This document shows, piece after piece, positions 10,201 through 44,382 of a DNA stretch of 64,000 bases. The notes beneath the pieces were generated by a model. The model saw only the letters and a program-made list of their open reading frames with translations, searched no databases and had not been told where the DNA came from. Source of the DNA: Actinostola sp. cb2023 (Eukaryota; Cnidaria; Anthozoa; Actiniaria; Actinostolidae); NCBI GenBank assembly GCA_033675265.1, contig JAUJYZ010000304.1:303501-367500 (forward strand). Direction: 5' to 3'. Every line of letters begins with the position of its first letter. Positions within the stretch are counted from its first letter, which is position 1. Made by a program: the position numbers and the translations under genes.

Positions 10201-10851
10201 TTCACCAAGTATAAACTGAATTTCAACCTCTTGGGGTTCTGGCTCATAACTAATATTTGTAGGAGTGTCTGTAGTGCCTGCTATGGCACGACCTATTGTA
10301 CAACAAATTAACACATACATTGTACAAAGTTTTCAAACAGAACATTCAAAAGACACATCTAAGAACAGGCCAAACAAGTACTCACCCTCCCACGGTAAGA
10401 AGAATATGACTCTCCCATCACTAGTAGCTGGGTCCAATAGACCCATATTCTTTGGACTGAGAAAACAGGAGTGAAAACAATAAACAGTCAACAACAATAA
10501 ACAGTCAACAACAACAACAACAACTTTATTTAAGCTCCCTCAAACAAACGAATGAATGAACAAACAAGAACAAACATCCAAAGCATTACAATGACAAAAC
10601 AACACAACTCCAGCGCTCACTGGTTTTTATATAATTAGATCAAACCAGACTAATAATTATCCATTGTTTCTGATTGGCTTGGTACATTCACAGTTCTACA
10701 TCTGAAAAAGATCTTAGGCTCTAATCCTGCAAGCCAGTCTCATTGCTTGCACTGCATCCAATCTATTATGACTGGGAAACTTTGCTTTTAGTGTACATTT
10801 ATTGTATATTTTATAGGGTGGTCCACAAGTTTATAACCTCATTAGATAAAG

Positions 10852-10882
<31 letters not shown>

Positions 10883-11800: not shown

Positions 11801-11855
<55 letters not shown>

Positions 11856-21900: not shown

Positions 21901-24900
21901 CTGGTAAACGACCCAAACCGTGTCTTAGGCCCCATCCACATATGTATGAACGTTTTCATTTCAAAGCACATTTTTTAGCATTTTCGCTATTTGTTTTTCC
22001 CATCCAAATGAAAAGTCGAGTCCTGGTACTTTACTATTAATTACGACCCATTTACACAATTTTAAAATAAATAAATAAATAACTGTTTATTTAAGTGTCC
22101 AATGTATTTTAGCGCTTGAGGTGTAGTTATAAACCTGCCACATACTTAGGCTACATGGCTAAGTTATGCTGCCAACAACTCATGTAAATCGTCTACAATA
22201 TATATATGGCGCTTAACAAGTTGCAGAAATGTGTTGCACGTTATTAAAGGTTGTTGTTTCTATTATTGGGTTTGATTGTTTAGGACAATTTTAAAATTAA
22301 TTATTGTCAATATTATTTAATGATAAATTATGGATAATGATCTTTGTTTTCATTTGCAGGTTATAATTCATTTGCTGGTGCTATCCTGGCACTCGGAATG
22401 CTTATGAGTTCTCTTGCGTACACTTGGAATCAATCGATCTGGTTTTTGGATGCGTCCATTGCATTGTGCATATCAGTATTATTAGGGACGTATGGGATAA
22501 GGTAATGACTGGCTTGTATTGTGCATATCAGTATTATTAGGGACGTATGGGATAAGGTAATGACTGGCTTGCATTGTGCATATCAGTATTATTAGGGACG
22601 TATGGGATAAGGTAATGACTGGCTTGTATTGTGCATATCAGTATTATTAGGGATGTATGGGATAAGGTAATGACTGGCTTGCATTGTGCATATCAGTATT
22701 ATTAGGGACGTATGGGATAAGGTAATGACTGGCTTGTATTGTGCATATCAGTATTATTAGGGACGTATGGGATAAGGTAATGACTGGCTTGTATTGTGCA
22801 TATCAGTATTATTAGGGACGTATGGGATAAGGTAATGACTGGCTTGCATTGTGCATATCAGTATTATTAGGGACGTATGGGATAAGGTAATGACTGGCTT
22901 GTATTGTGCATATCAGTATTATTAGGGACGTATGGGATAAGGTAATGACTGGCTTGTATTGTGCATATCAGTATTATTAGGGACGTATGGGATAAGGTAA
23001 TGACTGGCTTGTATTGTGCATATCAGTATTATTAGGGACGTATGGGATAAGGTAATGACTGGCTTGTATTGTGCATATCAGTATTATTAGGGACGTATGG
23101 GATAAGGTAATGACTGGCTTGTATTGTGCATATCAGTATTATTAGGGACATATGGGATAAGGTAATGACTGGCTTGTATTGTGCATATCAGTAGTATTAT
23201 TAGGGACGTATGGGATAAGGTAATGACTGGCTTGTATTGTGCATATCAGTATTATTAGGGATGTATGGGATAAGGTAATGACTGGCTTGCATTGTGCATA
23301 TCAGTATTATTAGGGACGTATGGGATAAGGTAATGACTGGCTTGTATTGTGCATATCAGTATTATTAGGGACGTATGGGATAAGGTAATGACTGGCTTGT
23401 ATTGTGCATATCAGTATTATTAGGGACGTATGGGATAAGGTAATGACTGGCTTGCATTGTGCATATCAGTATTATTAGGGACGTATGGGATAAGGTAATG
23501 ACTGGCTTGTATTGTGCATATCAGTATTATTAGGGACGTATGGGATAAGGTAATGACTGGCTTGTATTGTGCATATCAGTATTATTAGGGACGTATGGGA
23601 TAAGGTAATGACTGGCTTGTATTGTGCATATCAGTATTATTAGGGACGTATGGGATAAGGTAATGACTGGCTTGTATTGTGCATATCAGTATTATTATTA
23701 TTAGGGACGTATGGGATAAGGTAATGACTGGCTTGTATTGTGCATATCAGTATTATTAGGGACGTATGGGATAAGGTAATGACTGGCTTTTGTATTGTGC
23801 ATATCAGTATTATTAGGGACATATGGGATAAGGTAATGACTGGCTTGTATTGTGCATATCAGTATTATTAGGGACGTATGGGATAAGGTAATGACTGGCT
23901 TGTATTGTGCATATCAGTATTATTAGGGACGTATGGGATAAGGTAATGACTGGCTTGCATTGTGCATATCAGTATTATTAGGGACGTATGGGATAAGGTA
24001 ATGACTGGCTTGTATTGTGCATATCAGTATTATTAGGGACGTATGGGATAAGGTAATGACTGGCTTGTATTGTGCATATCAGTATTATTAGGGACGTATG
24101 GGATAAGGTAATGACTGGCTTGTATTGTGCATATCAGTATTATTAGGGACGTATGGGATAAGGTAATGACTGGCTTGTATTGTGCATATCAGTATTATTA
24201 GGGACGTATGGGATAAGGTAATGACTGGCTTGTATTGTGCATATCAGTATTATTAGGGACGTATGGGATAAGGTAATGACTGGCTTGTATTGTGCATATC
24301 AGTATTATTAGGGACATATGGGATAAGGTAATGACTGGCTTGTATTGTGCATATCAGTATTATTAGGGACGTATGGGATAAGGTAATGACTGGCTTGTAT
24401 TGTGCATATCAGTATTATTAGGGATGTATGGGATAAGGTAATGACTGGCTTGTATTGTGCATATCAGTATTATTAGGGACGTATGGGATAAGGTAATGAC
24501 TGGCTTGTATTGTGCATATCAGTATTATTAGGGACGTATGGGATAAGGTAATGACTGGCTTGTATTGTGCATATCAGTATTATTAGGGACGTATGGGATA
24601 AGGTAATGACTGGCTTGTATTCTCTGGAGGGGGGTACTACTCCCTAACAGTACATGCTTATGGAAGATGTAAAAAATCAGATTTTAAACATTTACAGTTG
24701 TAGCCCTGAAGGTGGGCGCTTAGCCCGAAAGCTTGGCAGTTTTTATTAAAACTAAGGTTGAAGATACAAAATTATTGTCATGAATTATCCAACCTACAAA
24801 CCAACATTAGATTAAGATGTAACTTGTCTGCACACAATTAATCTGTAATAGCCATTGGGTTCTTTGCCGACATATCTGGTTTGGGCGTGGCAGTGGGGTG

Positions 24901-25080
24901 CATGCTACCTGGTTTTACTGATGACTTCCTCCCCCCTCCCCCCTCCCCACTCCCTCCTTTGATTTGTCCCTGCGGCATCTACTCTCACTTATAAGTCTTC
25001 TATGTCTTTTCCATTCTTCCAGGTTGTTGAGTCAGATGCTGGGACGTAAAGGACAAGAAACTTTAGATTCCGATGATTAA
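18943..25080 (+). CDS. TMEM163: TMEM163-like zinc transporter
   Basis: Eight exons: 18943-19066, 19899-20021, 20527-20570, 20882-20976, 21063-21159, 21371-21482, 22360-22501 and 25023-25080. Phases agree and give 264 codons; human TMEM163 has 289. TMEM163 proteins are six-helix membrane proteins related to cation diffusion facilitators that move zinc out of the cytosol or into vesicles. Seen: a hydrophilic N terminus, helix 1 (VVSFISICCTLVIGLAAF), then SSAAFGFAFDSLLDVV, which matches the conserved family SASAFGF.LDS.LD. Its two aspartates (about residues 99 and 103) correspond to the zinc-site aspartates of helix 2. Later come GYNSFAGAILALGML and WFLDASIALCISVLLGTYGI, matching the family's C-terminal helices. 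The exon 4 donor (GTCTGA) is weak but fixed by phase. Exon 7's last 43 bases and donor are the seed of a 39-copy array filling intron 7. The orthology call rests on motif memory, not a search. Confidence 0.92.
20715..20847. mobile_element. Palindromic element in TMEM163 intron 3
   Basis: Arms GGCTCCCTGCAAGAACA and TGTTCTTGCAGGGAGCC pair, as do GATCAAAATCTAAATTCTCC and its right-hand counterpart. It ends 35 nt before the exon 4 acceptor and contains a decoy TTCTTGCAGG. Confidence 0.85.
21247..21306. repeat. Poly-C tracts
   Basis: Three C runs separated by CATAT lie in TMEM163 intron 5. Lengths are unreliable in assemblies. Confidence 0.85.
21577..21776. mobile_element. Foldback element in TMEM163 intron 6
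   Basis: Left AATAACGAGAAGATAAATCA, then TTTTTCTATTTAT, pairs with right ATAAATAGAAAAATGATTTA, then TCTTCTAGTTATT. Inner arms TTTCGGCTACCA and TGGTAGCCGAAA pair too. Confidence 0.88.
22459..24621 (+). repeat. 55-bp tandem array seeded from the exon 7 splice donor (39 copies)
   Basis: The first unit is real coding sequence: the last 43 bases of exon 7 (from TTGCATTGTGCATATCAG) plus 12 intron bases GTAATGACTGGC. The unit is then repeated, giving donors (GATAAG followed by GTAATG) at 22502, 22557 and so on to 24603. The distance 2101 equals 38 x 55 plus 11, and the 11 is accounted for by three units with insertions of 3, 6 and 2 bases. Variation is slight (GCATTG or TATTG; GGGACG, GGGATG or GGGACA). 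Reading through the first donor gives AGG TAA, an immediate stop. Confidence 0.96.
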
Positions 25081-25340
25081 TTAATTCAGTCAATTATATC
25101 AATATTTAATTGATAATTAATCTAAAGTATGGTTGTGCAAACTACTCATGTCTGGTTTCTGAATCTATGGGGCCATAAACAGAATACATAAATATGCACT
25201 AAGACGTTCTTTATACAAATATTTATCACTGACGTGTTATTAGACGTTTGAAGACATTATTTATAGACATCACGTTCCTTTACAACAAAGGCACGGAGAA
25301 AGGAAAAGTGTCAATGAATTATTCAATGGAGAAAATAGTG

Positions 25341-25346
25341 AATAAA
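25341..25346 (+). terminator. Candidate poly(A) signal of the TMEM163-like gene
   Basis: AATAAA lies 261 nt after the stop codon. No closer canonical AATAAA is seen in the 3' UTR; weaker variants cannot be excluded. Confidence 0.45.
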
Positions 25347-25737
25347 CACGATACATGAAAACTGTTGCTATGGTACTGCAGGGAAAAACGCGTGCGGGGA
25401 TGTTCGTCGTACTATACCTAGCTACCTGGGCCCTAGTTTAGGGGTTTGGTACCGCTTAGGGTGTTTAAGGTTATAATTCTCGGCGCACTCGTCTATGACA
25501 AACTTTGGGTCATAACTTCCTCAGTCTGCTTTTATGCAAATGCCATAAAACATTGGCAACTATTAGAGCTATCATTCACCTATAATACAATATAATTCGA
25601 TTGCACTGCAGAACATTTTTTTAAATAATATTAGAACTTAAGTAAACTCAATATTTTGGATAAAATTGGATATTGCGAAAAATCTGTCCGGTTTTTTTGG
25701 ATTAAAGTTTTGGAATCACTTTAGATTGTAATTGACA

Positions 25738-25884
25738 TAATTCATAACCTGACCAAGTTTTAGCAAAATCGTTGGAGCTAAAGCACGGCCGCATGATAAT
25801 TTCAGTGCTTAATTTTGGTGGCCTTCATGCGGCCGTGCTTTAGCTCCAACGATTTTGCTAAAACTTGGTCAGGCCTATAAATTA
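25738..25884. mobile_element. Nested perfect palindrome
   Basis: CTGACCAAGTTTTAGCAAAA, then TCGTTGGAGCTAAAGC and ACGGCCGCATGA, is matched by its exact reverse complement ending at 25873, around a 20-30 bp centre. Confidence 0.92.
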
Positions 25885-26404
25885 CAGTCAACTCTCCGCT
25901 AACGGACACTCTCGTAAGCGGACAGCTCTACTTACGGACACCTTTTCAAATCCCCGTTTTACCTCCCAGTCAAACTCTGTATTTACACATTCCCGTAAGC
26001 GGACACTCTCGTAAGCGGACGCGGACACTTTTGAAAATGAAAATTGGATTTTTCTTTTGTTTCTGACGCTCTCTCGTAAGCGGACACACTATATAATAAT
26101 GTTTCGGCAATGGAATTTATCTTTAATTTGCAATAAATCAACAAAAATATGACCTTTTACAGAGCAACAGAACAGTGGGGATCGATTTTGTCAAATCTCC
26201 ATTTGTCCGCGGGGAAGCAAGGTGTACGGTTCAGTTGCTATTTTTCTCTACCGATTAAAACTAATTAACTTTCCCGTAAGCGGACATCCACCCTATTTTT
26301 CTTTGGTGTCCGCTTACGGGAATAGTTCTCATAAGCGGACAGCTCTACTAACGGACACTTTTTTCAATTCCCGAGGGTGTCCGCTTACGAGAGAGTTGAC
26401 TGTC
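25883..26404. mobile_element. Nested pogo-like element, TIR TACAGTCAACTCTC
   Basis: Left ACAGTCAACTCTC and right GAGAGTTGACTGT are inverted. The interior is packed with CGTAAGCGGACA and its complement, like the CAGCGGACACC repeats at 50600-50950. Confidence 0.85.
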
Positions 26405-26657
26405 ATTCTAATTTTTCGCAAGATCCAATTTTATCCAAATTATTTGTAAAAATGTTCTGCAGTGCAATCGAATTATATTGTATTATAGGTGAATGATAGC
26501 TCTAATTGTTGCCAATGTTTTATGGCAATTGCATAAAAGCAGAGGAAGTTATGACCCAAAGTTTGTCATAGACGAGTGCGCCGCGAATTATAACGGAGTC
26601 ACCTTAAACCTGAAACGACTACCATTAGACTGAGTTATCCCGGTACCAATTAGGGTA

Positions 26658-27751
26658 TTTGCCCGTTAATAACACACCTACAAAAAATACTCGTTTCTGA
26701 TTGGCTGATTGACTGTGGATTTTTTCTTTTCGAGTAACATTGTTCAGATTGTTGCGTTGCAAGTTGCAGAGCAACAATGTTGCGCGACAAGTTGCACGAT
26801 TTTGTTGCTCGTATTACCGCACCTTTAGAGGTTATATTTTTAACATTTCCGACGAGCATCCCTACCACTTTCTGTGGGCCGTTCTCCTGGTTAAATCACG
26901 GCTTTAAAGGTTTTGAGTTTAGTTCTAGAAACAGAGAAGGATAACAAACCATTTTCAAAGGGAGTAAATAAAAGTATATATCATACTTTTAAGTAAAAAA
27001 CAAGACGCTCTATATAAAGCGTTTACTCCACGGGCATCAGCAATGAGCCAGCCGTTCGGCTTCCTCAGCGGCACGAAGCGCATGCGCCTTGGTACCCAGC
27101 TGGCGATTTGTGGCCATAAGAAAAAGAAAGCCCAATTTTCAACTCGGCGTATAAACGAGTAATAAACAAGACTTTGGAAAATGATCGGTCAAAGTTTAGT
27201 TTTGAGACTCTGTAAACCATGTGACGTCATATTGCCGGACGTGTTTTTCAGAAACATTAGCCAAAGCAGCCATTTTACCAAACAAAGTATTATGATTTTC
27301 TATATGTGACTAACAATCTACATCAAGGAGTATCGAGCGGTGCCTAACAACTCGAAACCGTTGCACTGAAGTTTCCATTAGACTATAAAAACGTTATGAG
27401 AAAAGATCATGTCCTTTTCATTATTTTAAAACTAACTCTTCTAATAAACGCTTCTGGCTTGTAGTCGAGTACTTCAGTTGCAACGGTGTATCCTCCACGA
27501 TGGTATAACTAACTACATGTACAAAATAACGCAGTCCAACGACAATAAAAAGTGTTTATAAATGTTAATTCCTAATATACACAACGTATTTACTGAGATT
27601 ATGGTAAAACGAAATGCACGGGTTCCCTGTGTTAATCTACCGAGATTTGCTAACACACGAAGCCCATTCAAAAAACTTACACAAACTATAGCTATATAGA
27701 ATAGATAAATAAATGCTGAGGTTCTCATACAGCCGAGTACCTAGAGTATAT
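26658..27751. other. Gap between converging genes, mostly featureless
   Basis: 26690-26850 resembles the right half of the foldback at 40822-41081 (GTTGCGTTGCAAGTTG, TTGCGCGACAAGTTGCACGA, CCGCACCTTTAG). 27040-27150 shares GCGCATGCGC and TGGCGATTTG motifs with 51590-51650. The rest shows no exon; the 3' UTR of SLC22-A presumably lies just below 27752. Confidence 0.6.
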
Positions 27752-30700
27752 TTAAACTACAGTGTCCTTCTTATCAAGCAGCTTGTCTTCCTCTTTCTCC
27801 GTTTTCAATTCCTCGTCACCAGTCCCTTCCTTGTCAGGTCGTAAATCAGTCACCAGTCCCTGCTCGGAGTCACCCGTCTGCAAAGTTTCAACAGTTGGTG
27901 CGTTGTTGGTTTCGGGAAGAAGCATACACAGGAATCCCGCAATGAGAGCGTCAACAGCCATGACGATGTAGGGAAGCTGAGTGAAGTAGCGAGCCTGTGG
28001 AACGGTATTCATTCAAATTAAATCCCGGCTTTTCTGATGCTGGTTAATTTTCCACATCAAAACTACATGACCATATTTGGCAATGACGATGATGATGTAC
28101 AACATCACGTGATACAATGATGTGGAGATGTGGGTAAAGCGGCATTACTTACGAGCCAGATGACAAACGGTGCAGAGATTGCTCCAACCCTGCCAGCAGC
28201 TGAGGAACTTCCAATACCGATAGTCCTACCAAAACACAATGGTACATGATGTCTGTTAGTGTCTACAAGCGACAGGAGCGCAATCATGATATCGGGACAA
28301 TGTTATGATAAGACGTGATTAGCGCAAACAGAAAACGAAAAAAATGAGTCCAAGTGTACTTGCGTGTTTGGATTTTCAGTGCGTGGTAACGCTACTTATG
28401 ATTCCCATTCCAACCCCGTTTTTATTGCAAGAGAAAACCAGTCGTACCTGATAACTGTTGGGAAAAGCTCGGAAGAAAATACAAAGATGGCGTCAAAGGA
28501 ACACATAATTGCAAACTTGCCCAGTAAAGCAAAGGCGATGCGACCAGCCGCGTAACCTGGAAGACATCAACGAGAACATGTTACAGCACAGCATACAAGC
28601 ATGCATCCATGGCGTTATACAATCACATCACACCATATATAAAAAACATGTACACGTATACCACATAATACCTGCACACAACATCACACCACATCATATC
28701 AACAACACCTTACTCACCTCAGTTATCACATTGCTGTTTAATTATTTCCTTCCTTCTTTACCACACTATATACACCACACCACACCTCACTTTCCACACT
28801 GTACTACTGATGCTTTCTCTATTTTTTCTTTACCAAACACCAGCACCTTACACCACACCACACCACACCACACCACACCACACCACACCACACCACACCA
28901 CACCACACACCACACCACACACACACCACACACACCACACCACACCACACCACACACCACACTATGCATACACACATGACATCACGATACTACACTGGAG
29001 ACTAAACTAGCCAAACCTCTCGCTTATACAAGAGGCAATAATTACAGTTTTTCACTGAGAACTAGAACTACACCGCACCGCACGGCCGCACACGTTTTGA
29101 TGCTATTCAATATGGCGGGAAGAAGTGGCATCGTTTAATTAAGCATGTCTGTCTAGCTCGTACCTTCGTTTTCTGGATCCTCAGGAAACACCGTCACTAA
29201 CATGTTCCCAAATGCTCCTACGATGAGACCAACAACAACTACCAATTTACGTCCAAATCTGCAATAAATGTCAACATTATTATTTTCCTTGGGAAGATCA
29301 AGAAAGCTAGAGGGAGGAAAATACTGCAGTTGGTCCATGATAATCTACTGGTCCATAATAATCTACACTGGTCCATAATAATCTACACTGGTCCATAATA
29401 ATCTACACTGGTCCATAATAATCTACACTGGTCCATGATAATCTACTGGTCCATAATAATCTACACTGGTCCATAATAATCTACACTGGTCCATAATAAT
29501 CTACTGGTCCATAATAATCTACTGGTCCATAATGATCTATACCGGTCCATAATAATCTACTGGTCCATAATAATCTACTGGTCCATAATAATCTACTGAT
29601 CCATTATAATCTACTGGTCCATAATAATCTACTGGTCCATAATAATCTACCGGTCCATAATAATCTACTGGTCCATAATAATCTACTGGTCCATAATAAT
29701 CTACCGGTCCATAATAATCTACTGGTCCATAATAATCTACTGGTCCATAATAATCTACTGGTCCATAATAATCTACTGGTCCATAATACTCTCAGTACTG
29801 GTCCATAATAATCTACTGGTCCATAATAATCTACTGGTCCATAATAATCTACTGGTCCATAATAATCTACTGATCCATTATAATCTACTGGTCCATAATA
29901 ATCTACTGGTCCATAATAATCTACCGGTCCATAATAATCTACTGGTCCATAATAATCTACTGGTCCATAATAATCTACCGGTCCATAATAATCTACTGGT
30001 CCATAATAATCTACTGGTCCATAATAATCTACTGGTCCATAATACTCTCAGTACTGGTCCATAATAATCTACTGGTCCATAATAATCTACTGGTCCATAA
30101 TAATCTCAGTACTGGTCCATAATAATCTACTGGTCCATAATTACCTGTCCATAGACCAAATAGCAAATGCGTTTCCAGGAAGCTCAATGAGTGACGTCAG
30201 GAAAAAGTTAAGATACATGTTACCACCAAGGAGTACTGAACCTAGTGAGACACCGAAATACACCTGCGCATTGACAAACCTGCAGAATGAAAAACAACTC
30301 AGATGCATCAAGAATTTGATATTCTAAATGTCATTAAATGTTTTGCTCGCTAAAGTTAAAGTTAAAACTTGTTCGGCCATTTTGACAGATTTCGCTATAC
30401 TCACTAGCTGATAGCCTAGCAGTAACGAACAAATCAGAATTAACGCGCTTTTGCTCATATCCAGAGGTAGTTTATATAATAAGATCTGATATATTTCGAT
30501 AACAAATAAATTTAAACCGCGAGACGTTTTTTCTCACAAAATTGCGCGCGAGAGTGAATCACGAAATAGCGATAGCGCGATACTAAGAGGGTCTGAATGG
30601 GGTTAACTTTCAACTGACAAACGGCTTTAAAAATAACTGTTCACTGACAAACGTTTAACTGACGGGGTAAAAAAAAATGACACATGACCAAATATTTGAC

Positions 30701-33700
30701 TGACAATTGACACATAGACCCCTACATTCAGACGCGATGCTAAAGATACAGTTACAGTTCACAAGACTCCCACATTCAGACGCGATGCTAAAGATACAGT
30801 TACAGTTCACAAGACGTCTGTGACCGACCACCTCTCTTAATCGACCGCTTTAATTACACAAACATTGAATTAATGATGACTTCTGACTTGTAAGCGACCA
30901 CCTCCAGTAACCAACCACTCTGCCTAAATATAAGGATGGTCGATAAGAGAGGTTGGACTGCACTGCACTGCTTACCATGAGATCCATGAGATGATGGTCT
31001 TTTTAGTCATTGACCTGGTTTTAAACAGATCAAAAAAGTTGGGTGTTCGACCAGAGCACTTTTGTCCCTCGGGAAGGCCAACCTCTTCGTCCTCTACAAT
31101 TTCTTTCTTGTTATATTTTCCTATTTTGTTGAGGATTTCTTGCGCACCTTTTTCTTGGTCGTGTGTGATCATCCACCGTACTGACTCTGGAAAACAACTA
31201 CGACAAACTGGTTTAGTATATTTTTTTCAGCCTGCAGCAGAGTATCACAGGCAGCCCAACTGTGCGACTGAAATAAAAAATATGTATGGGTTTCCTGTAC
31301 GCGCGCCTTTATTAGTTAGATTTTTGATGGGTTCCCTGTGGTAGAAAAGCAATCTGATTTTCAATGCGCATGCGCACAGGACACCCCAATACAAAATAAA
31401 GATGAAGGGCAGAGAAGTGCGACACAGTCTCGATCCCCAGTATTTTTCCATGTCACGTGGATGTTCCGCTTTCCCAGACATCCTTGCGATCTGAATTCCA
31501 ACCCACGACGATTATGTAATCAGGTATGCACCTATTTACAACACTTGTCAAATTTCTCGCGCGCTGATTGGATAAGAGCCATTGTCGATAAGAGGACAGA
31601 CGCATAGAATGACGCTCGCGCACGGAACGAGCGCGCGCTTGCGCTTGAATCAGATTTTCTTTCAAATCTATTTGTCGTTTTGGGAGCCTTTTCCGCTTTT
31701 CTGAGTAAATATTGTTGTAAAAAAACAAATCGCTACGCTCGTTGTTCCACTTGAGTTTTGAACATTTTATGGCGTCATCCGTTGTCGATAAGAGTACAGA
31801 CAATGGAAAACCATGTTCGATTTAACAAATCGAAGTCGCTTTTCTATGGTCTGTACTCTTATCGACCATAGAAATGACGTCAGAAAATGATCAAAACTCA
31901 AGTGGAACCACGAGCGTAGCTACGCGAGTGGTTTCACTGCAAAGTTTTGATCATTTTCTGACGTCATTTCTATGGTCGATAAGAGTACAGACCATAGAAA
32001 AGCGACTTCGATTTGTTTTTTACAACAATATTTACTTAGGAAAGCGGAAAAGGCCCCCAAAACGACAAATAGATTTGAAAGAAAAACTGATTCAAGCGCG
32101 CGCTGGTTCCGTGCGCGAGCGAAACGTCATTCTATGCGTCTGTCCTCTTATCGACAATAGAGAGCTTCAGAATCGACTACGAGTACGACTACGAGTACGA
32201 GTTTTCGCCGTTACGATTAGTGCGCATGCGTAAAACCGTGACATTGTCACGCCAGCGTGAAAAACTCGTTGTCGTCATTTCGACTACGACGAGATTTCTT
32301 GCAAAACTCGTTTGTCTAGAGTACGAGTTTTGAGTGAGACATTTTGACTAAATATTTCGGTCTTTTAAATCTAGAACACTCAATAACATCTTCTTTAATG
32401 ATTGTTCTTCTTGTTGTGATAAGAAATAATTAAAGATCAGTGTTATTTTTGCTAAAATTTGAAAAACCGGAAGCGATAAAATTTCGTTTGTTTGTTTTTG
32501 AATCTAAATTTTGAATTTGCGCGAGCACGATTACGACAACAAGTTAGCGCGCGCGCTCAAAACTCGTACTCGTAGTCGTACTCGTAGTCGAATCTGAAGC
32601 TCCCTAATGGCTCTTATCCAATCAGCGCGCGAGAAATTTGACAAATGTGGTAAAATTGTTAAATTTCAAAAACGTTGATCTGAATTGGATTATCTGAAGC
32701 TTTTAAATTCACGTTAACCTCCGCCATATCTCGTTCGAACACCAAGCGTGATTCCAAGCTTGAGGTCGAATGAATGAATTTCGCATGTTACTAACGAAAG
32801 ACTTTCAGTTTCCCATAATTTGTCTTCATCTCAGATCATCCATTTCAGATCGCCCGTTGTCAACGTTTTTCGAAATAGGTGTATACATAAGACTGACAGC
32901 ATTACTGTACAGCTATTTCAAAAACGTTTGTCTAGCTTGTGAATACGTAGATCAGAACTGGACCCACTTTTATCTACGCGCGCGGCAAAGAGCAGAAGAG
33001 AAGAGCTGGGCTAGAGAGAGAGAGACAATTTTCTTCCGCGCGCATATTATTTTAGTTTTTTTTGTTTTCGCGCACAATATAGTTATTGAGAAATGCGGGT
33101 CCAGCTCTGGACTAGTAAATACGGAATATTGAATTGCAGTTCAAGTCGTTGTGATAAATTATAAAGAATATTTTTTAGAAGGCAAAAAACAACATTTGTT
33201 GCACTGACCGCACTATGCTAGTTGAACAAGTTATATATTCACGCACAAGGTATAAACAAAAGGCGCATTTTAGGCGCATTTCATCACATCCATATGCGAA
33301 TTGGCGCCGTGTAAATAATAAATTATTATTATTAAAAGGCACACTTACAACCAAAACAGGAAGAGTAGTATTCCAGGGGCTGAGGTGGCTATAGAGAGTT
33401 GTCGCCAGTCCCTTATCAGGTAGGCCAACAGAGCAATAAGCATGAGTGCCCCGGTCCAAAAGTACCATGCAAATGTTCCCGCCATGGCCCTCTTTGTAGG
33501 ACCCACAAATTCTGTCGCCATGACGAACAGACAGACTATCGAACCACCTAGAAAACAACACATGGTGAGGATTTATGTAGTAGTGGGAGAGAGAAAGTAA
33601 TGCAATGAATGGATGACAATATAAGAGAATGAATGAATGAACGAACGAAAAAGGGATAGAAATATGGAAGGAAAGAAGATATAAAGATGATTTGAAAGTG

Positions 33701-36700
33701 GGGTGTGTATAGTTGTAAGGAATCTAGAACATACCTTATTCGTACTTAATTTCGCGCGTACTTAATTTCGCGATTTTGTTAATACAGCATTTCGCGAGGC
33801 TTTATTTTCGCGATTTCGATAAGACAAAATGAAAAAAGAGCATTACATTTCGCGAAAGCGGTGTCAACAACATTAATTTTTCTAAAAAAACAAACTTATT
33901 TCTATACTGAAACAGGAACAAGATGACAGTCAACTAGACTATAACTAGATCAGACGTTATAAACTTGTAGCTAAAACAAACAAAAACATTTACGCTATAC
34001 GGTTGCTCAGTTGCAAATGGTAGTATTATGTTGTTGTTATGCTTTAATTTCGCGATGTTTTTAAAATCGCGGCGAACTTAAAGCCTCGCGAAATTAAGTA
34101 CGAATAAGGTAGATGGATCAAATAACGATGCATAAAAAGGACAAAATTATGACTGCATCATCTAATCACAATGTACATGACTCTAATAGAAGTAACACAA
34201 ATAAAACTCGTGCCAAGACGAAACTAACCCAGTCCAAATCCAATAAAGAACCTAAAGATAACGTAGAGCCAATAGTAAGGGATGAAGGAACTGATAAATG
34301 CTAGCCAGCATACCATACAAGATGAGATGAACAGGATCTTCTTACGGCCATACTTGTCCGACATGATCCCAAAGAATACATTGCCAAACAGCCAGCCGGT
34401 GAACATGATGGACGTCGTGGCCCAAGTAAAGGTAGCCTTGTCGCATACCAAGTCCCACTACAGCAAAAAGAAACATTTGTCATGATATGACACGGCAAGC
34501 TTTTCCAGAACTGGTAGTCTCAGAATTGTGTTCCGTTTTAGAATTGCCAAGTAAAGCGTGCTTAGCTGACACGTGCGAGATTCGAGTGGGCTGCGCGCAG
34601 AAGGAAGACACGATCTGGTAAAACCAGACACGGCAAAAGCGCCGGATTCATAAGCGCAATCAGAAGAAAAATGAAATCTAATGGTTCTTCCAATTCCGAT
34701 TAGCTTTGGATTGCGATTTTTAAATTAGCCCTCGGTTCGACTGAGACCCGCGAACCGTCTTGGCGCGCGTGAGTGCTGATTTATCGTGCATGTAAAGAGC
34801 ATCTCATACATGTTCGCCATTATCTATAGGGACTACTAGTGACTCACCTCAGTCACTATCGACGTGTACGGTGTTATCTAGAGGGACTACTAGTGACTCA
34901 CCTCAGTCACTATCGACGTGTACGGTGTTATCTAGAGGGACTACTAGTGACTCACCTCAGTCACTATCGACGTGTACGGTGTTATCTATAGGGACTACTA
35001 GTGACTCACCTCAGTCACTATCGACGTGTACGGTGTTATCTATAGGGACTACTAGTGACTCACCTCAGTCACTATCGACGTGTACGGTGTTATCTAGAGG
35101 GACTACTAGTGACTCACCTCAGTCACTATCGACGTGTACGGTGTTATCTAGAGGGACTACTAGTGACTCACCTCAGTCACTATCGACGTGTACGGTGTTA
35201 TCTATAGGGACTACTAGTGACTCACCTCAGTCACTATCGACGTGTACGGTGTTATCTATAGGGACTACTAGTGACTCACCTCAGTCACTATCGACGTGTA
35301 CGGTGTTATCTAGAGGGACTACTAGTGACTCACCTCAGTCACTATCGACGTGTACGGTGTTATCTATAGGGACTACTAGTGACTCACCTCAGTCACTATC
35401 GACGTGTACGATGTTATCTATAGGGACTACTAGTGACTCACCTCAGTCACTATCGACGTGTACGGTGTTATCTAGAGGGACTACTAGTGACTCACCTCAG
35501 TCACTATCGACGTGTACGGTGTTATCTATAGGGACTACTAGTGACTCACCTCAGTCACTATCGACGTGTACGGTGTTATCTAGAGGGACTACTAGTGACT
35601 CACCTCAGTCACTATCGACGTGTACGGTGTTATCTATAGGGACTACTAGTGACTCACCTCAGTCACTATCGACGTGTACGGTGTTATCTAGGGACTACTA
35701 GTGACTCACCTCAGTCACTATCGACGTGTACGGTGTTATCTAGAGGGACTACTAGTGACTCACCTCAGTCACTATCGACGTGTACGGTGTTATCTATAGG
35801 GACTACTAGTGACTCACCTCAGTCACTATCGACGTGTACGGTGTTATCTATAGGGGGACTACTAGTGACTCACCTCAGTCACTATCGACGTGTACGGTGT
35901 TATCTAGAGGGACTACTAGTGACTCACCTCAGTCACTATCGACGTGTACGGTGTTATCTATAGGGACTACTAGTGACTCACCTCAGTCACTATCGACGTG
36001 TACGGTGTTATCTATAGGGACTACTAGTGACTCACCTCAGTTATCTATAGGGACTACTAGTGACTCACCTCAGTCACTATCGACGTGTACGGTGTTATCT
36101 AGAGGGACTACTAGTGACTCACCTCAGTCACTATCGACGTGTACGGTGTTATCTATAGGGACTACTAGTGACTCACCTCAGTCACTATCGACGTGTACGA
36201 TGTTATCTATAGGGACTACTAGTGACTCACCTCAGTCACTATCGACGTGTACGGTGTTATCTAGAGGGACTACTAGTGACTCACTCACCTCAGTCACTAT
36301 CGACGTGTACGGTGTTATCTATAGGGACTACTAGTGACTCACCTCAGTCACTATCGACGTGTTGTATGTTATCTATAGGGACTACTAGTGACTCACCTCA
36401 GTCACTATCGACGTGTACGGTTATCTATGACTACTTGATCTCAGTCAAGTGTACTATCTAGGGACTACTAGTGACTCACCTCAGTCACTATCGACGACTT
36501 ACGGTGTTATCTATAGGGACTACTAGTGACTCACCTCAGTCACTATCGACGTGTACGTTGTTTACAAATACGGGTTATCTAGAGGGACTACTAGTGACTC
36601 ACCTCAGTCACTATCGACGTGTACGGTGTTATCTATAGGGACTACTAGTGACTCACCTCAGTCACTATCGACGTGTACGGTGTTATCTAAAGGGACTACT

Positions 36701-39700
36701 AGTGACTCACACCTCAGTCACTATCGACGTGTACGGTGTTATCTATCAAAGGGACTACTAGTGACTCACCTCAGTCACTATCGACGTGGGGTGGGGATTT
36801 GAAAGTGTTACTAGTCACCCTCAGTCGGGCACTGATTGTTTGTGCGTCCCGAGTGTCGATCTATTTGATCTGACCTAGTGACTCAGCTCTAGTCAGGCGT
36901 GGTCGAAGCATACTGTACATGTGCTTTCGGTACTTCGGTACTTTCAGTACTTGCAGTTCAAAAGAACCAAGAGGTGATTTTTTATTGAGACTTTTATCTG
37001 CAATTTTCATTCATCATATCGAAATTGTTTGTTTTGAGGAAGTCTGTACTCCCAGGTATATAATTGGACAGAAGTATCACCTCAGTCACTATCGACGTGT
37101 GGCCATGTATCTACCGACCGATTCAGCTATTGTGACTCATGCCTCAGTCACCTGATCGAAGTGTACCAATTTATCTAGATTTGCTGTGACAGTTGTGGCC
37201 TTTGGCACCATATGGTGTGCGTTGGGATGAAACACCAGATCACTGGCAGTGACTCACCTGGTCAGTCATCGACGTGTACGAGTGTTAGGGCATAGGGTTT
37301 ACTATTTGTTCCCTCACTTTCAAGAGAAAAAAAGAGATGACATGTTTTGAATGGATATGTCTATAGTTGTTTCTGCCCTTGCATGGGTGGGTCTTTTTTT
37401 CATTCATTTGATCTGAACGTGTACGGTGTTATCTCACCCTCGGGAGGGACTAAAATTTGTAGCTCACCTCAGTCACTATCGACGTGTACGGTGTTATCTA
37501 TAGGGACTACTGACTCACCCCCACTATCCCCCCATGTTATCTATAGGGACCTAGTGACCCCCCCCACTATCGAATTTGTACGGGGTTAACTTTGATAGGT
37601 GCATTAATCTCTCCAAACGTGTACAACCAAAATACTATTCAATCAAATCATTGTCTTAGTTCAGACAAAATCCAAGTTTTGAAACCCCAAATCATCGATA
37701 ATCCAATCTGGTTGTACAGGAAGGCCGTGGAAACCATGTATGAACTCGAAAAAAGAAGAATTATGTTGGCCATTTCTCCTCAATCGGTGTTGTATGGTAG
37801 CCATTTATCTTAAAGCGAGTAACCAGGCCTGTTTGCAGCACAGGTAAACCAAAGCTCACCGATTGATGTTTTCCTAAAAAGCGGGAATTTTGAACTCATA
37901 GTAAATATATTGGGTTTCCTGTGGTATATAGAAATGTTCAAAGTGCCTTCCGTGACTCGTTCGTACTCTGTGCCGAGCGTAAGCGAACACTTCATCTTTA
38001 AATCTATCCACCTCAACAGAAGCGCTTGGTATTTCTAAACAAACTTAGAATAGTTTTATTTTGATAAATTATGTTTTTTTTTGGGTGGAAATTTCGAAGG
38101 GAATTTCGGACTGGAGGTAGACCGCTGGTCATAATATCGCGGGAGTAAAATGTCTTGGATTTCTGGTAATGTGTACGGTGTTATCTAGAGGGACTACTAG
38201 TGACTCACCTCAGTCACTATCGACGTGTACGGTGTTATCTATAGGGACTACTAGTGACTCACCTCAGTCACTATCGACGTGTACGGTGTTATCTATAGGG
38301 ACTACTAGTGACTCACCTCAGTCACTATCGACGTGTACGGTGTTATCTAGAGGGACTACTAGTGACTCACCTCAGTCACTATCGACGTGTACGGTGTTAT
38401 CTAGAGGGACTACTAGTGACTCACCTCAGTCACCATCGACGTGTACGGTGTTATCTAGAGGGACTACTAGTGACTCACCTCAGTCACTATCGACGTGTAC
38501 GGTGTTATCTAGAGGGACTACTAGTGACTCACCTCAGTCACTATCGACGTGTACGGTGTTATCTATAGGGACTACTAGTGACTCACCTCAGTCACTATCG
38601 ACGTGTACGGTGTTATCTAGAGGGACTACTAGTGACTCACCTCAGTCACTATCGACGTGTACGGTGTTATCTAGAGGGACTACTAGTGACTCACCTCAGT
38701 CACTATCGACGTGTACGGTGTTATCTAGAGGGACTACTAGTGACTCACCTCAGTCACTATCGACGTGTACGGTGTTATCTAGAGGACTACTAGTGACTCA
38801 CCTCAGTCACTATCGACGTGTACGGTGTTATCTAGAGGGACTACTAGTGACTCACCTCAGTCACTATCGACGTGTACGGTGTTATCTATAGGGACTACTA
38901 GTGACTCACCTCAGTCACTATCGACGTGTACGGTGTTATCTAGAGGGACTACTAGTGACTCACCTCAGTCACTATCGACGTGTACGGTGTTATCTAGAGG
39001 GGTGACTCACTCAGTCACTATCGACGTGTACGGTGTTACTAGAGGGACTACTCACTCACTCAGTCACTATCGACGTGTACGGTGTTATCTAGAGGGACTA
39101 CTAGTGACTCACCTCAGTCACCATCGACGTGTACGGTGTTATCTAGAGGGACTACTAGTGACTCACCTCAGTCACTATCGACGTGTACGGTGTTATCTAG
39201 AGGGACTACTAGTGACTCACCTCAGTCACTATCGACGTGTACGGTGTTATCTATAGGGACTACCAGTGACTCACCTCAGTCACTATTGCATTGCCAGAAA
39301 TCAGAGACATTTTGCGTCTACGATTATTTGTGTCAGCGGAGTTACCCAGAATCAAAAGATTATGCTCAAATTCATGTAAACTATGTGAAATCTGAATCAC
39401 AAACTAATAGTGTGAAGCGATCTTGATCATACAGCCTCTACATTTTAAAATAATTGCAAATTTAGCAAAAAGATACAAAAATGGTATTTACCACAGGAAA
39501 CCCAAAGTTGAACCCCCTCCCCTCCTATATCTCTCTCCTATTTCTCGCTTTTTGAGCTAACTCAGTTACTATATCCGGGTTTCCTGTTTAATCTAACAGG
39601 CCAGGCTACTTATGTAAACATGGCGATCCAAATAATCTTGATAGAAGCGTTTCATGGAGTGAAAAACAACGGTGAAAACAGTATATTTACTCAGTATGCT

Positions 39701-42700
39701 TCTGTATCGGCGAAAGTGGAATTTAGCTTATCTTTGGCTGGATTTTGTCATATTAGAAGTGGAATTGATGGCCAAACAAGTGTGATATTCTGTGAGTTTA
39801 GATGATGTCCTTTCGAACTGGCTATCGGGAAAGTGTGTACCACGCTCGACGAAGCTGCTACCAACTTTTAGGAATTTACTTAATTTGGCGGCCTTTTACA
39901 GTAACAGACAGAGGTGAGATGTTGTTGAGAGAGCGATTTTTGAAATCGATTTTGTCATACTTTATTTTCGCTTGTTTGTAAGAAGTGTACTCGATTCGAG
40001 CACCCAAAACATTAAACTTGTGAATTAGCTATCGGGAGTTTGCATCCGAAGTTTAGTTCTTCAGATATTTCTGATTTTCTATGTTTTGCCATACATTTCT
40101 ACCATTTCTCTTTGATATGTAAATGTACGAAAAACTTATGAATAATGAGCTGCGCGACCAGGCATGTCTCTGATTTCTGGGTATGAAGTGTACGGTGTTA
40201 TCTAGAGGGACTACTAGTGACTCACCTCAGTCACTATCGACGTGTACGGTGTTATCTCAGTAGAGGGACTACTAGTGACTCACCTCAGTCACTATCGACG
40301 TGTATGGTGTTATCTAGAGGGACTACTAGTGACTCACCTCAGTCACTATCGACGTGTACGGTGTTATCTATAGGGACTACTAGTGACTCACCTCAGTCAC
40401 TATCGACGTGTACGGTGTTATCTAGAGGGACTACTAGTGACTCACCTCAGTCACCATCGACGTGTACGGTGTTATCTATAGGGACTACTAGTGACCTCAC
40501 GGTGTTATCTAGAGGGACCTAGTGACTCTCACTATCGACGTGTACGGTGTTATCTAGAGGGACTACTAGTGACTCACCTCAGTCACTATCGACGTGTACG
40601 GTGTTGTAAATTCCCATTCACTGCGTGCAATACTACATCGATAATCGCGGTTGGGATCGTTTCCTCTGATTGAAAACGTTTCTACATCAAGAAAAAATTA
40701 CCGTGAATCAATCTGTCGTTCCTTGGAGGACTTTTGATGAGGGGGAGGGGAGGGGAAAACACAAATCTTGGAAAGTTCGCGATCACGTGGGCTATCATTT
40801 TTGTGAGTTTTATCGGTATTAAAAGGTGCGGTAATATGGTCAACAAAATCGTGCAATTTGTCGCGCAACATTGTTGCGTTGCAAGTTGAAGAGAAAATGT
40901 CGCTCGTATTACCACTCCGCGCGCAACAAAGAAAAATTAGAAACCCTCTCTACTCTTTGCAACAAAGAAAATGTGTTGCGCGCGGAGTGGTAAAACGAGC
41001 GACATTTTCTCTTCAACTTGCAACGCAACAATGTTGCGCGACAAATTGCACGATTTTGTTGCCCTTTTTACTGCACCTTTAGTCTGCGCATGCGCTTACC
41101 TATACAAGTCCCGCGAACCTGTTAAACAAGATTTATTTCTAAGATAATTGATATGATGCTGTTGCATATGTTGCACGGGGAATTATGGGATGTTCCAGCA
41201 AGACTTACGTGTAAAGTTACAAATGATGCTGTTGCGCGGGGAATTATGGGATGTTCCAGAAAGACTTACGTGTAAAGTTACAAATGATGCTGTTGCGCGG
41301 GGAATTATGGGATGTTCCAGCAAGACTTACGTGTAAAGTTACAAATGATGCTGTTGTGCGGGGAATTATGGGATGTTCCAGCAAGACTTACGTGTAAAGT
41401 TACAAATGATGCTGTTGCGCGGGGAATTATGGGATGTTCCAGAAAGACTTACGTGTAAAGTTACAAATGATGCTGTTGCGCGGGGAATTATGGGATGTTC
41501 CAGCAAGACTTACGTGTAAAGTTACAAATGATGCTGTTGCGCGGGGAATTATGGGATGTTCCAGAAAGACTTACGTGTAAAGTTACAAATGATGCTGTTG
41601 CGCGGGGAATTATGGGATGTTCCAGCAAGACTTACGTGTAAAGTTACAAATGATGCTGTTGTGCGGGGAATTATGGGATGTTCCAGCAAGACTTACGTGT
41701 AAAGTTACAAATGATGCTGTTGCGCGGGGAATTATGGGATGTTCCAGAAAGACTTACGTGTAAAGTTACAAATGATGCTGTTGTGCGGGGAATTATGGGA
41801 TGTTCCAGAAAGACTTACGTGTAAAGTTACAAATGATGCCGTTGTGCGGGGAATTATGGGATGTTCCAGCAAGACTTACGTGTAAAGTTACAAATGATGC
41901 TGTTGCGCGGGGAATTATGGGATGTTCCAGAAAGACTTACGTGTAAAGTTACAAATGATGCCGTTGTGCGGGGAATTATGGGATGTTCCAGAAAGACTTA
42001 CGTGTAAAGTTACAAATGATGCTGTTGTGCGGGGAATTATGGGATGTTCCAGAAAGACTTACGTGTAAAGTTACAAATGATGCCGTTGTGCGGGGAATTA
42101 TGGGATGTTCCAGAAAGACTTACGTGTAAAGTTACAAATGATGCTGTTGCGCGGGGAATTATGGGATGTTCCAGCAAGACTTACGTGTAAAGTTACAAAT
42201 GATGCTGTTGCGCGGGGAATTATGGGATGTTCCAGCAAGACTTACGTGTAAAGTTACAAATGATGCTGTTGCGCGGGGAATTATGGGATGTTCCAGAAAG
42301 ACTTACGTGTAAAGTTACAAATGATGCTGTTGCGCGGGGAATTATGGGATGTTCCAGCAAGACTTACGTGTAAAGTTACAAATGATGCTGTTGTGCGGGG
42401 AATTATGGGATGTTCCAGCAAGACTTACGTGTAAAGTTACAAATGATGCTGTTTGCGCGGGGAATTATGGGATGTTCCAGAAAGACTTACGTGTAAAGTT
42501 ACAAATGATGCTGTTGCGCGGGGAATTATGGGATGTTCCAGCAAGACTTACGTGTAAAGTTACAAATGATGCTGTTGTGCGGGGAATTATGGGATGTTCC
42601 AGCAAGACTTACGTGTAAAGTTACAAATGATGCTGTTGCGCGGGGAATTATGGGATGTTCCAGAAAGACTTACGTGTAAAGTTACAAATGATGCTGTTGC

Positions 42701-44382
42701 GCGGGGAATTATGGGATGTTCCAGCAAGACTTACGTGTAAAGTTACAAATGATGCTGTTGCGCGGGGAATTATGGGATGTTCCAGAAAGACTTACGTGTA
42801 AAGTTACAAATGATGCTGTTGCGCGGGGAATTATGGGATGTTCCAGCAAGACTTACGTGTAAAGTTACAAATGATGCTGTTGTGCGGGGAATTATGGGAT
42901 GTTCCAGCAAGACTTACGTGTAAAGTTACAAATGATGCTGTTGCGCGGGGAATTATGGGATGTTCCAGAAAGACTTACGTGTAAAGTTACAAATGATGCT
43001 GTTGTGCGGGGAATTATGGGATGTTCCAGAAAGACTTACGTGTAAAGTTACAAATGATGCCGTTGTGCGGGGAATTATGGGATGTTCCAGCAAGACTTAC
43101 GTGTAAAGTTACAAATGATGCTGTTGCGCGGGGAATTATGGGATGTTCCAGCAAGACTTACGTGTAAAGTTACAAATGATGCTGTTGCGCGGGGAATTAT
43201 GGGATGTTCCAGCAAGACTTACGTGTAAAGTTACAAATGATGCCGTTGTGCGGGGAATTATGGGATGTTCCAGCAAGACTTACGTGTAAAGTTACAAATG
43301 ATGCTGTTGCGCGGGGAATTATGGGATGTTCCAGCAAGACTTACGTGTAAAGTTACAAATGATGCTGTTGCGCGGGGAATTATGGGATGTTCCAGAAAGA
43401 CTTACGTGTAAAGTTACAAATGATGCTGTTGCGCGGGGAATTATGGGATGTTCCAGCAAGACTTACGTGTAAAGTTACAAATGATGCTGTTGTGCGGGGA
43501 ATTATGGGATGTTCCAGCAAGACTTACGTGTAAAGTTACAAATGATGCTGTTGCGCGGGGAATTATGGGATGTTCCAGAAAGACTTACGTGTAAAGTTAC
43601 AAATGATGCTGTTGCGCGGGGAATTATGGGATGTTCCAGCAAGACTTACGTGTAAAGTTACAAATGATGCTGTTGTGCGGGGAATTATGGGATGTTCCAG
43701 CAAGACTTACGTGTAAAGTTACAAATGATGCTGTTGCGCGGGGAATTATGGGATGTTCCAGAAAGACTTACGTGTAAAGTTACAAATGATGCTGTTGCGC
43801 GGGGAATTATGGGATGTTCCAGCAAGACTTACGTGTAAAGTTACAAATGATGCTGTTGCGCGGGGAATTATGGGATGTTCCAGAAAGACTTACGTGTAAA
43901 GTTACAAATGATGCTGTTGCGCGGGGAATTATGGGATGTTCCAGCAAGACTTACGTGTAAAGTTACAAATGATGCTGTTGTGCGGGGAATTATGGGATGT
44001 TCCAGCAAGACTTACGTGTAAAGTTACAAATGATGCTGTTGCGCGGGGAATTATGGGATGTTCCAGAAAGACTTACGTGTAAAGTTACAAATGATGCTGT
44101 TGTGCGGGGAATTATGGGATGTTCCAGAAAGACTTACGTGTAAAGTTACAAATGATGCCGTTGTGCGGGGAATTATGGGATGTTCCAGCAAGACTTACGT
44201 GTAAAGTTACAAATGATGCTGCCATTGATACATTTCCAATCAGGTTCTAGAGCAAGGAATGTCATGACTAATGTCTGGAATGTCACTGGTACCATCATTA
44301 CTCCAACCAAGACCACAATCAACCACTGAAACCGACCCATCACGCCAACACGCTCCAAATACTCGTCTACCGATAACACCAT
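27752..44382 (-). CDS. SLC22-type organic cation/anion transporter, copy A
   Basis: Ten exons in transcript order: 44199-44382, 40578-40663, 34229-34457, 33349-33547, 30976-31197, 30145-30279, 29164-29258, 28448-28556, 28153-28225, 27752-27994; all phases agree, 524 codons. It is a 12-helix major-facilitator plasma-membrane transporter for organic ions. Seen: EPDWKC and paired cysteines in the first outer loop, QWDLVCDK-like WDLVCDK after helix 1, DKYGRKK (loop 2-3 MFS signature), GPTKRAMAG, FPESVRW, DRFGRK (loop 8-9), ELFPTVIR, and a Lys/Glu-rich C-terminal tail. Exon 5's acceptor (CGTAG before TTGTTTTCC) lacks a good pyrimidine tract but is set by phase and by copy B; exon 2's acceptor (CAGAG before GAAACG) is also chosen by phase. 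Introns 1, 2 and 6 carry donor-seeded tandem arrays. Intron 1 is absent from copy B. Substrate unknown. Confidence 0.95.
28847..28972. repeat. CACAC/ACACC microsatellite
   Basis: Tandem CACAC and CACACA repeats in SLC22-A intron 7 create open frames on both strands that are not genes. Confidence 0.95.
29331..30140 (-). repeat. 18-bp tandem array abutting the exon 6 splice donor
   Basis: About 44 units of TATGGACCAGTAGATTAT (minus strand), some expanded to 20 bp or carrying CTCAGTA. The array ends a few bases from the donor of exon 6 at 30144. That junction reads TATGGACAG, then GTAATTAT, which differs from the unit only by small indels, so the array may derive from the junction. Unlike the other arrays, its units no longer keep AGGTA. 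It fills nearly all of SLC22-A intron 6. Confidence 0.88.
31540..32650. mobile_element. Long-arm foldback element, split by a younger insertion
   Basis: The left arm (31545-31850, starting ACTTGTCAAATTTCTCGCGC) is matched by the right arm (31960-32158 and 32606-32648). The central palindrome around 31880-31960 (ATGACGTCAGAAAATGATCA and its complement) pairs too. The right arm is interrupted at 32158. It lies in SLC22-A intron 4. Confidence 0.88.
32159..32605. mobile_element. Nested MITE with AAT target duplication, TIR AGRGAGCTTCAGA
   Basis: Ends AGAGAGCTTCAGAATCGACT and AGTCGAATCTGAAGCTCCCT are inverted, with repeated ACGAGTACGACTACGAGT inside both. AAT flanks both sides (32156-32158 and 32606-32608). 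The uninterrupted left arm of the host element shows the empty site with a single AAT. A 3-bp duplication suits PIF/Harbinger-type elements. Confidence 0.88.
33732..34111. mobile_element. MITE, TIR TACCTTATTCGTACTTAATT
   Basis: TACCTTATTCGTACTTAATT, then TCGCG, at the left pairs exactly with its complement ending AATAAGGTA at 34111. TTTCGCG motifs recur inside. It lies in SLC22-A intron 3. Confidence 0.9.
36790..38168. repeat. Decayed section of the 54-bp array plus unassigned insert
   Basis: Scattered fragments of the unit (CTCAGTCACTATCGACGTG at 37081, 37465 and elsewhere) are mixed with unrelated sequence. 37590-38168 looks like an insertion whose right end, TGTCTTGGATTTCTGGTAATG, resembles the right end of the element at 39283-40190. 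Local errors in a hard-to-assemble repeat are an alternative explanation. Confidence 0.6.
39283..40190. mobile_element. Foldback element inserted within the 54-bp array
   Basis: Left end TTGCATTGCCAGAAATCAGA and right end TCTGATTTCTGGGTATGAA are inverted, and array sequence flanks both. Inner motifs GGAAACCCAAAG and CGGGTTTCC also pair. No transposase is seen; short ORFs inside are unrecognised. Confidence 0.75.
40822..41081. mobile_element. MITE, TIR AAAGGTGCGGTAATA
   Basis: AAAGGTGCGGTAATATGGTC at the left pairs with CTGCACCTTT at the right. The inner arms CGTTGCAAGTTGAAGAGAAA and TTTCTCTTCAACTTGCAACG pair exactly. It lies in SLC22-A intron 1, next to exon 2. Related half at 26690-26850. 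Confidence 0.88.
41166..44198 (-). repeat. 61-bp tandem array seeded from the exon 1 splice donor (50 copies)
   Basis: The unit (minus strand) is the last 21 bases of exon 1 (GCATCATTTGTAACTTTACA, then C) plus 40 intron bases starting GTAAGTCTTGCTGGAACATC. The authentic junction is the highest-coordinate copy (donor 44193-44198); the most distant donor is at 41203-41208. The distance 2990 equals 49 x 61 plus one, the extra base being a T in the unit at about 42452. Three variable sites define unit types and reveal a higher-order structure. Read-through of the first donor stops after CGT AAG TCT TGC TGG AAC. Confidence 0.97.

Follow-up and report, generated by a model that had tools for sequence, protein, structure and literature searches.

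Mirage-like tandem arrays at exon-intron donors in two genes of the sea anemone Actinostola sp. cb2023

In a 64,000-nt stretch of the genome of a deep-sea anemone, Actinostola sp. cb2023 (Cnidaria, Actiniaria; assembly GCA_033675265.1, contig JAUJYZ010000304.1, positions 303,501 to 367,500; hereafter the window), four introns of two genes, TMEM163 and SLC22-A, begin with a tandem array that starts at the end of the preceding exon. Three of the four arrays are exact, with 39, 50 and 60 copies of the donor, and the fourth, built on an 18-bp unit, has a diverged first copy. These arrays satisfy the anatomical definition of the amphioxus "mirages," tandem repeats that span exon-intron boundaries and are described at both splice sites (PMC3087553). 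They are probably mirage-type minisatellites that arose by ordinary tandem duplication across a donor, later expanded, and were tolerated since the authentic donor still precedes every other copy. In a genome so rich in repeats, chance duplication accounts for them about as well as a special process acting at splice sites, and the present data fall short of showing a donor-specific origin. The kind itself is already known; what is new is the phylum, this being a cnidarian case, together with how many copies the arrays hold and how common they appear to be.

Anatomy of the Donor-Spanning Arrays

Tandem repeats in the window were called with Tandem Repeats Finder (TRF), which returned 70 rows, and the gene models, which place the donors of all four arrays, were rebuilt in this analysis. 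An earlier note on the same DNA had proposed that arrays begin at exon-intron donors, that each unit consists of an exon tail and an intron head, and that growth is solely into the intron. TRF confirms the arrays at these donors, three of them exactly and that of SLC22-A intron 6 as a probable case. The composition of the unit is borne out by the donor motifs and gene models, and the direction of growth holds as well.

In TMEM163, encoded on the plus strand, the modeled exon at 22360..22501 ends at a donor at 22501/22502, and its last 43 bp (22459-22501) form the authentic first copy of a 55-bp unit made of 43 exon and 12 intron bp. The array (22459..24621, plus strand) contains 39 copies of this unit, AAG/GTAATG being present in 39 of 39, and occupies most of the 2521-bp intron. 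The last exon (LLSQML...), placed by the gene model and homologs, follows at 25023..25084 on the same strand.

The remaining three arrays lie in SLC22-A, on the minus strand. Exon 1 (44199..44382; donor at 44199/44198) provides its last 21-23 bp as the first copy of a 61-bp unit, and the array called by TRF (41169..44221) has 50 copies with 50 donor motifs, ACAC/GTAAGT. The exon copy and copy 2 are identical over the 21 bp upstream of the donor, the type of copy 1 is also present in 10 other copies, and unit types recur in blocks from copies 1, 19, and 39. Exon 2 (40578..40681; donor at 40578/40577) provides its last 27 bp (40578-40604) as the first copy of a 54-bp unit, of which these 27 bp are the exonic part. 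The corresponding TRF array (34820..40604) carries 60 GAG/GTGAGT donors, with 45 spacings of exactly 54 bp and four gaps above 120 bp (132, 149, 951, and 1439 bp). It is interrupted by the 1439-bp degenerate stretch and by the 951-bp gap, which contains an element with 22-nt inverted ends that are 91% complementary (39289..40185, unstranded). A second end similar to that of this element is visible by eye near 38160.

Exon 6 (30145..30279, from the gene model) ends in TATGGACAG/GTAAT at the donor 30145/30144, and this 14-bp exon copy is not identical to the 18-bp unit TATGGACCAGTAGATTAT. The array (29331..30141, minus strand, 43.6 copies by TRF) abuts the intron 6 donor, and the donor of the unit is weak, scoring -1.2 vs 8.2 for the authentic site. 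Intron 6 is thus a probable donor-spanning case and not an exact one.

The First Copy as the Authentic Donor

The 10 modeled exons of SLC22-A join into one open frame, 530 codons plus stop. Its protein matches Pfam Sugar_tr (4.5e-36), and its best matches among solved structures are SLC22 family members. The best protein matches are anthozoan, with Exaiptasia at 84% over the full length. The TMEM163 model is partial, with 74% identity to Exaiptasia TMEM163 and 62% to Actinia TMEM163. It matches Pfam Cation_efflux right at the cut-off, and the structure search found no solved relative.

The homologous proteins run without a gap across the junctions, which upholds the view of the earlier note that the authentic copy is the one attached to the exon. 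The SLC22-A homologs of Exaiptasia, Stylophora, Montipora, and Desmophyllum are gapless at all three array junctions; in one of the four, from Desmophyllum, a gap of 2 residues lies four residues past the intron 1 junction. In the TMEM163 of Exaiptasia, Actinia, and Desmophyllum, R is directly followed by LL (LLSQ/LLGN) across the array junction. Reading through the authentic donors yields 1, 8, 3, and 1 codons before an in-frame stop, and use of a later copy would therefore break the protein. As in mirages, the authentic exon copy is retained and the gene product is unchanged, and the same is true of NUP160 in the positional sample described below.

The donor arrays appear to disturb gene prediction, as two deposited models, both computer predictions, illustrate. 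The TMEM163 model P0123 (QZH41_012996) stops with the residues YGIR, immediately ahead of the array. P0009 (QZH41_003255), which covers 27752-59530 of the window, is a chimera that fuses SLC22-A with SLC22-B, the adjoining gene on the same strand, and omits SLC22-A exons 1-5. Its 338 residues were found as nine pieces, namely SLC22-B exons 1, 2, and 7, SLC22-A exons 6-10, and six residues read from intron sequence.

Donor Arrays in the Window and in a Sample of the Genome

A junction scan covered 30 introns of four genes in the window, all of them outside the interval from about 8 to 18.9 kb. Spanning arrays were found at 4 donors vs 0 acceptors (Fisher one-sided 0.056). Low p values were also returned for the acceptors of TMEM163 intron 2 (0.0) and SLC22-A intron 4 (0.02) and for the donor of SLC22-B intron 6 (0.025). 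None of the three has an array: the two acceptors were judged on reading to be short or T-rich matches, and the donor is a match of 11 bases.

For comparison with the rest of the genome, 20 stretches of 10 kb (L009-L028) were taken at preset positions, 4 on the contig of the window and 16 on others. They hold 195,000 non-N bases, and an array was defined by a unit of at least 15 bp and a span of at least 70 bp. The sample contains 52 such arrays covering 31,142 bp, or 16% of the 195 kb (about 11% without L012), and a stricter filter gives 31 arrays and 14.5%. L012 (250001-260000 of the window's contig) is one array throughout its 10 kb, with an 82-bp unit in about 123 copies.

Three donor-spanning arrays were kept by reading, in L010 (exon 9206-9299, 4 donor copies), L011 (exon 5918-6065, 3 copies), and L024 (exon 8426-8581, 4 copies). 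L010 and L011 are on the window's contig, which thus supplies two of the three cases from four of the 20 stretches. The L011 gene is NUP160, as the two exons on either side of the array, once joined, match human NUP160 (9.5e-22) and Pfam Nup160 (1.7e-30). The L010 and L024 exons are candidates recognized from open frame and splice signals, and Pfam gave no match for them. L028 has an array at an acceptor (9092-10000), with a 103-bp unit that includes TTTTCAG and 8.9 copies up to the end of the stretch. It shares no more than one or two bases with the exon and hence abuts the acceptor rather than spanning it; the exon has P-loop matches below curated cut-offs and no solved relative in the structure search. 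Together with the amphioxus mirages, which are described at both boundaries (PMC3087553), this array speaks against the idea that such arrays are confined to donors.

These cases were selected from relaxed scans over the 52 sampled arrays, which gave 6 donor and 4 acceptor rows, of which 3 and 1 were kept. Dropped for weak signals or unlikely peptides were the donor rows in L009, L010 (6324), and L013 and the acceptor rows in L010 (6324) and L018 (twice). The scan had picked a different GT in L024 and a different AG in L028, where CAG/GTAAAG and TTTTCAG were chosen by reading. The scans require an acceptor and a donor within the stretch and may therefore overlook first or truncated exons and arrays whose first copy has diverged. 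A coding-potential scan of 84 repeats from the window and the sample returned 2 donor candidates, one of them SLC22-A intron 1, and 0 acceptor candidates; it was trained on 1045 codons, with TMEM163 excluded after a failed frame check, and is too weak to carry weight.

If about 260 introns per Mb are assumed, from the gene figures in PMC10803348, 1.03 donor-spanning arrays are expected by chance in the sample. The three found are no clear excess over chance (P for 3 or more, 0.086), and the ratio of donors to acceptors in the sample alone is 3:1 (P 0.63). A clear excess of donor-starting arrays, for which the earlier note proposed a check, is thus not seen in the sample, whereas the window taken alone does exceed chance, post hoc.

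Origin of the Arrays and Alternative Explanations

From these observations we infer how the arrays were founded, that they are tolerated because the first donor is used early, and that they lack a function. In the founding event, a segment straddling the donor would have been tandemly duplicated once. Some of these duplications may have arisen by slippage or microhomology joining at short direct repeats, one in the exon tail and one in the intron head, and the array would then have expanded through unequal exchange. In a minisatellite-rich genome some duplications would be expected to strike donors. Such duplications would be retained because the first copy, which is transcribed first, keeps the exon and its donor intact, while the extra copies fall in the intron. 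Duplication of an acceptor would place the decoys first in the transcript, and duplication of a donor the authentic site, open to recognition ahead of any decoy; donor arrays would then be expected to outnumber acceptor arrays even with no mutational process peculiar to donors.

Some features may be traces of founding and expansion. A run of 9 bp at the exon start of the unit recurs at the end of the array in SLC22-A intron 1, and one of 5 bp does so in L010, so that a direct repeat of at least 5 bp is present in two of the six cases tested, the 18-bp array being outside the test. The binomial P of 0.0045 is optimistic, as the phase of the array end was placed by eye. In TMEM163, the exon has TTGCATT and the array end TTGTATT; 32 of the 39 copies have T and 7, including the exon copy, have C, a majority as expected had the second copy joined at the intron-side repeat. 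Slippage or microhomology joining fits some cases, not all. In the 61-bp array, one 11-unit string of unit types occurs twice (maximum in 500 shuffles, 8), a sign that the later growth of the intron 1 array took place by block exchange; the recurring unit blocks suggest array turnover. Concerted evolution inside the arrays is evident both from this string and from the TRF matches, which are 97% for the 55-bp array, 97% for the 61-bp array, 94-97% for the clean parts of the 54-bp array, and 92% for the 18-bp array. No 16-mer of the four units occurs elsewhere in the window, and in a genome search made with a TMEM163 array query only, all 11 matches listed, the best candidates, fall in its own array. 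Arrays borne by a transposon would show the unit elsewhere or the array inside inverted ends, and neither was found in the window or among these matches.

Several observations weigh against an origin by ordinary duplication and tolerance. Four of the six cases tested have no direct repeat of at least 5 bp (runs of 2-3), TMEM163 included when its exact run is counted. Among 11 hand-picked TRF arrays, 4 span one of the 30 donors vs 0.28 expected (P 1.2e-4), and counted per intron the figures are 4 of 5 vs 0.48 expected (P 2.5e-4). The donor arrays of the window thus exceed what survivorship alone predicts, though post hoc, and both P values overstate the case because the finding was chosen for its pattern. 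In the window and sample together there are 7 donors vs 1 acceptor (two-sided P 0.07), a total that also leans toward the prediction from tolerance without being decisive. Survivorship, which the earlier note had put forward as the null, is not rejected, while the window count and the 7:1 ratio speak for the view of the earlier note.

An alternative possibility is that donors are mutational hot spots, through transcription-linked breakage, R-loops, or slippage at 5' splice sites. The 4 donor-spanning arrays in 30 window introns, the 3 among 52 sampled arrays, and the 7:1 ratio are in line with this, and yet we regard it as unlikely, given the lack of a clear excess in the sample (3 vs 1.03 expected, P 0.086), the acceptor-abutting array of L028, the amphioxus mirages at acceptors (PMC3087553), and the composition of the units themselves. 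Donor motifs are not enriched in the units of 35 sampled arrays at any of three thresholds tried (5 vs 7.0 expected, 2 vs 3.4 at a score of at least 7.5, and 2 vs 1.75), nor significantly so in the 11 arrays of the window (2 vs 0.7 expected, p 0.165), although the matrix, built from 26 donors, has limited power and several true cases score low. The G/C skew of the sense units is inconsistent (+0.52, -0.33, 0.00, and +0.33), and an R-loop or G-skew signature was rejected on these disagreeing signs. Single-strand folds of the units give z values of 1.09, 0.62, 0.19, and, with the 18-bp unit folded as a dimer, -1.91. A donor hairpin was likewise rejected: the intron 2 unit makes an 8-bp hairpin around the donor that is no better than shuffles (the z of 0.19). 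The R-loops or breakage suggested by the earlier note therefore find no support in skew or folding. In a bolder form, donors would be the preferred birthplaces of minisatellites, and thousands of introns would open with ladders of near-identical donors of which the spliceosome would have to choose the first. Extrapolated crudely, 3 cases in 195 kb give about 6,500 introns (95% range 1,350-19,000), with two of the three from one contig. We consider this unlikely; if true, it would amount to a natural experiment at genome scale in how 5' splice sites are chosen, and to a mutational process linked with donors.

It has been proposed for amphioxus globins that introns themselves are made by tandem duplication, and the arrays could be remnants of such intron births. 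SLC22-A intron 1 is missing from the paralogue SLC22-B, whose exon 1 spans that position, and the array fills 3053 of the roughly 3517 bp of this intron. A gained intron would take its GT and AG from two copies of the duplicate; instead, the arrays stop 72 to 488 bp before the acceptors, and the acceptor scan found 0 of 30. Over the final 700 bp of intron 1, which hold about 3 units, nothing matches its acceptor (p 0.775), and introns 2 and 6 are, by reading, common to SLC22-B, so that arrays also grew in older introns. As a general account intron birth is quite improbable, but SLC22-A intron 1 may be a gained intron, in which case its array would agree with what was proposed for amphioxus. 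A role for the arrays as tandem decoy donors or as intronic elements controlling splicing or expression seems very improbable. In favor of such a role, three arrays (39, 50, and 60 copies) have kept their decoy donors intact, but this follows from recent homogenization; the 18-bp unit has the weak donor noted above (-1.2 vs 8.2), and the matching SLC22-B donors, those of introns 1 and 5, have no array in the junction scan. Least credible of all is an assembly artefact, with inflated copy number or misjoined arrays. The 424.3-Mb assembly (1596 scaffolds) was built from PacBio and Illumina reads, and PacBio assembly with DBG2OLC and polishing can misjudge repeats (PMC10803348); SLC22-B exon 2 also has a frame break. 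On the other hand, arrays of 0.8-6 kb are short relative to a 20-kb insert library (PMC10803348), and ordered unit types and an inserted element are hard to obtain by misjoining.

Relation to Known Repeats

The earlier note knew of no named repeat class defined in this way, and here it has to be corrected, as the amphioxus mirages share the definition (PMC3087553; PMC3902484). Mirages are known from amphioxus Adh3 and the globins BflGb6 and BflGb9 (PMC3087553), to which a later source adds PGBD5, citing troponin C (TnC) as a further case (PMC3902484). Mirage anatomy is found in three exact cases and one probable case in the window and in three more donor-spanning cases in the sample, one of them confirmed by homology. 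Like those of amphioxus, the anemone arrays have many copies with splice signals and show concerted evolution within the cluster (PMC3087553; PMC3902484). They differ in their cnidarian host, and they are known from the sequence of one assembly. Their copy numbers, 39-60 donor copies in three arrays, compare with 6 and 3 units in two amphioxus BflGb6 haplotypes, and their units, 18-61 bp long in the window and 73-117 bp in the sampled stretches, compare with 10-72 bp in Adh3 and 150-160 bp in the globins.

Other systems share single features. Human internal tandem repeats in segmental duplications are minisatellite expansions at exon borders that can alter intron structure, but they are short (on average 30-bp units x 4) and linked to recent paralogues (PMC2812944). 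Intron gain in potato RdRp also began with a tandem duplication, there across an intron-exon border (PMC4974935). In potato a new intron was made, whereas here existing introns were lengthened, two of the three in SLC22-A being common to the paralogue by reading. For the intronic minisatellites of earthworms, the available portion of PMC12783039 describes no boundary-spanning arrays. No cnidarian mirage case is among the matches listed in a literature search, which left most subscription papers outside its scope and is not proof of absence.

If donor arrays are as common as the small sample suggests, many natural introns have 3 to 60 near-identical competing donors. With donors so alike, site strength cannot explain the choice, and position or order of transcription must therefore do so. 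When identical 5' splice sites are duplicated in vitro, the site nearer the intron is often favored. If that preference is true, correct splicing at donor arrays needs explaining.

Other Arrays and Neighboring Features of the Window

The remark of the earlier note that other arrays in the window do not start at exon borders stands. The comparison case is a 62-bp array (56293..57200, minus strand, right end by reading) within SLC22-B intron 2 (56248-57539), where it touches neither border. In the adjacent SLC22-B exon 2 (57540-57766, minus strand), the expected transporter reading switches frame part-way, a break that reflects either an assembly error or a damaged gene.

Among the remaining arrays, those at 50602 and 62207 have no inverted repeat of at least 14 nt, and that at 56301 has just a weak one. 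The 30-bp array at 7535 sits within an element with 28-nt inverted ends (7455-8087), and ends like those of this element can be seen by eye near 2270-2540 and 4130-4330. The 43-bp array at 6764 (6558-7026) lies on one arm of a 53-nt inverted repeat, with a unit that includes TGACGTCA and AAGATGGCGGC, and the array at 62901 also includes inverted repeats.
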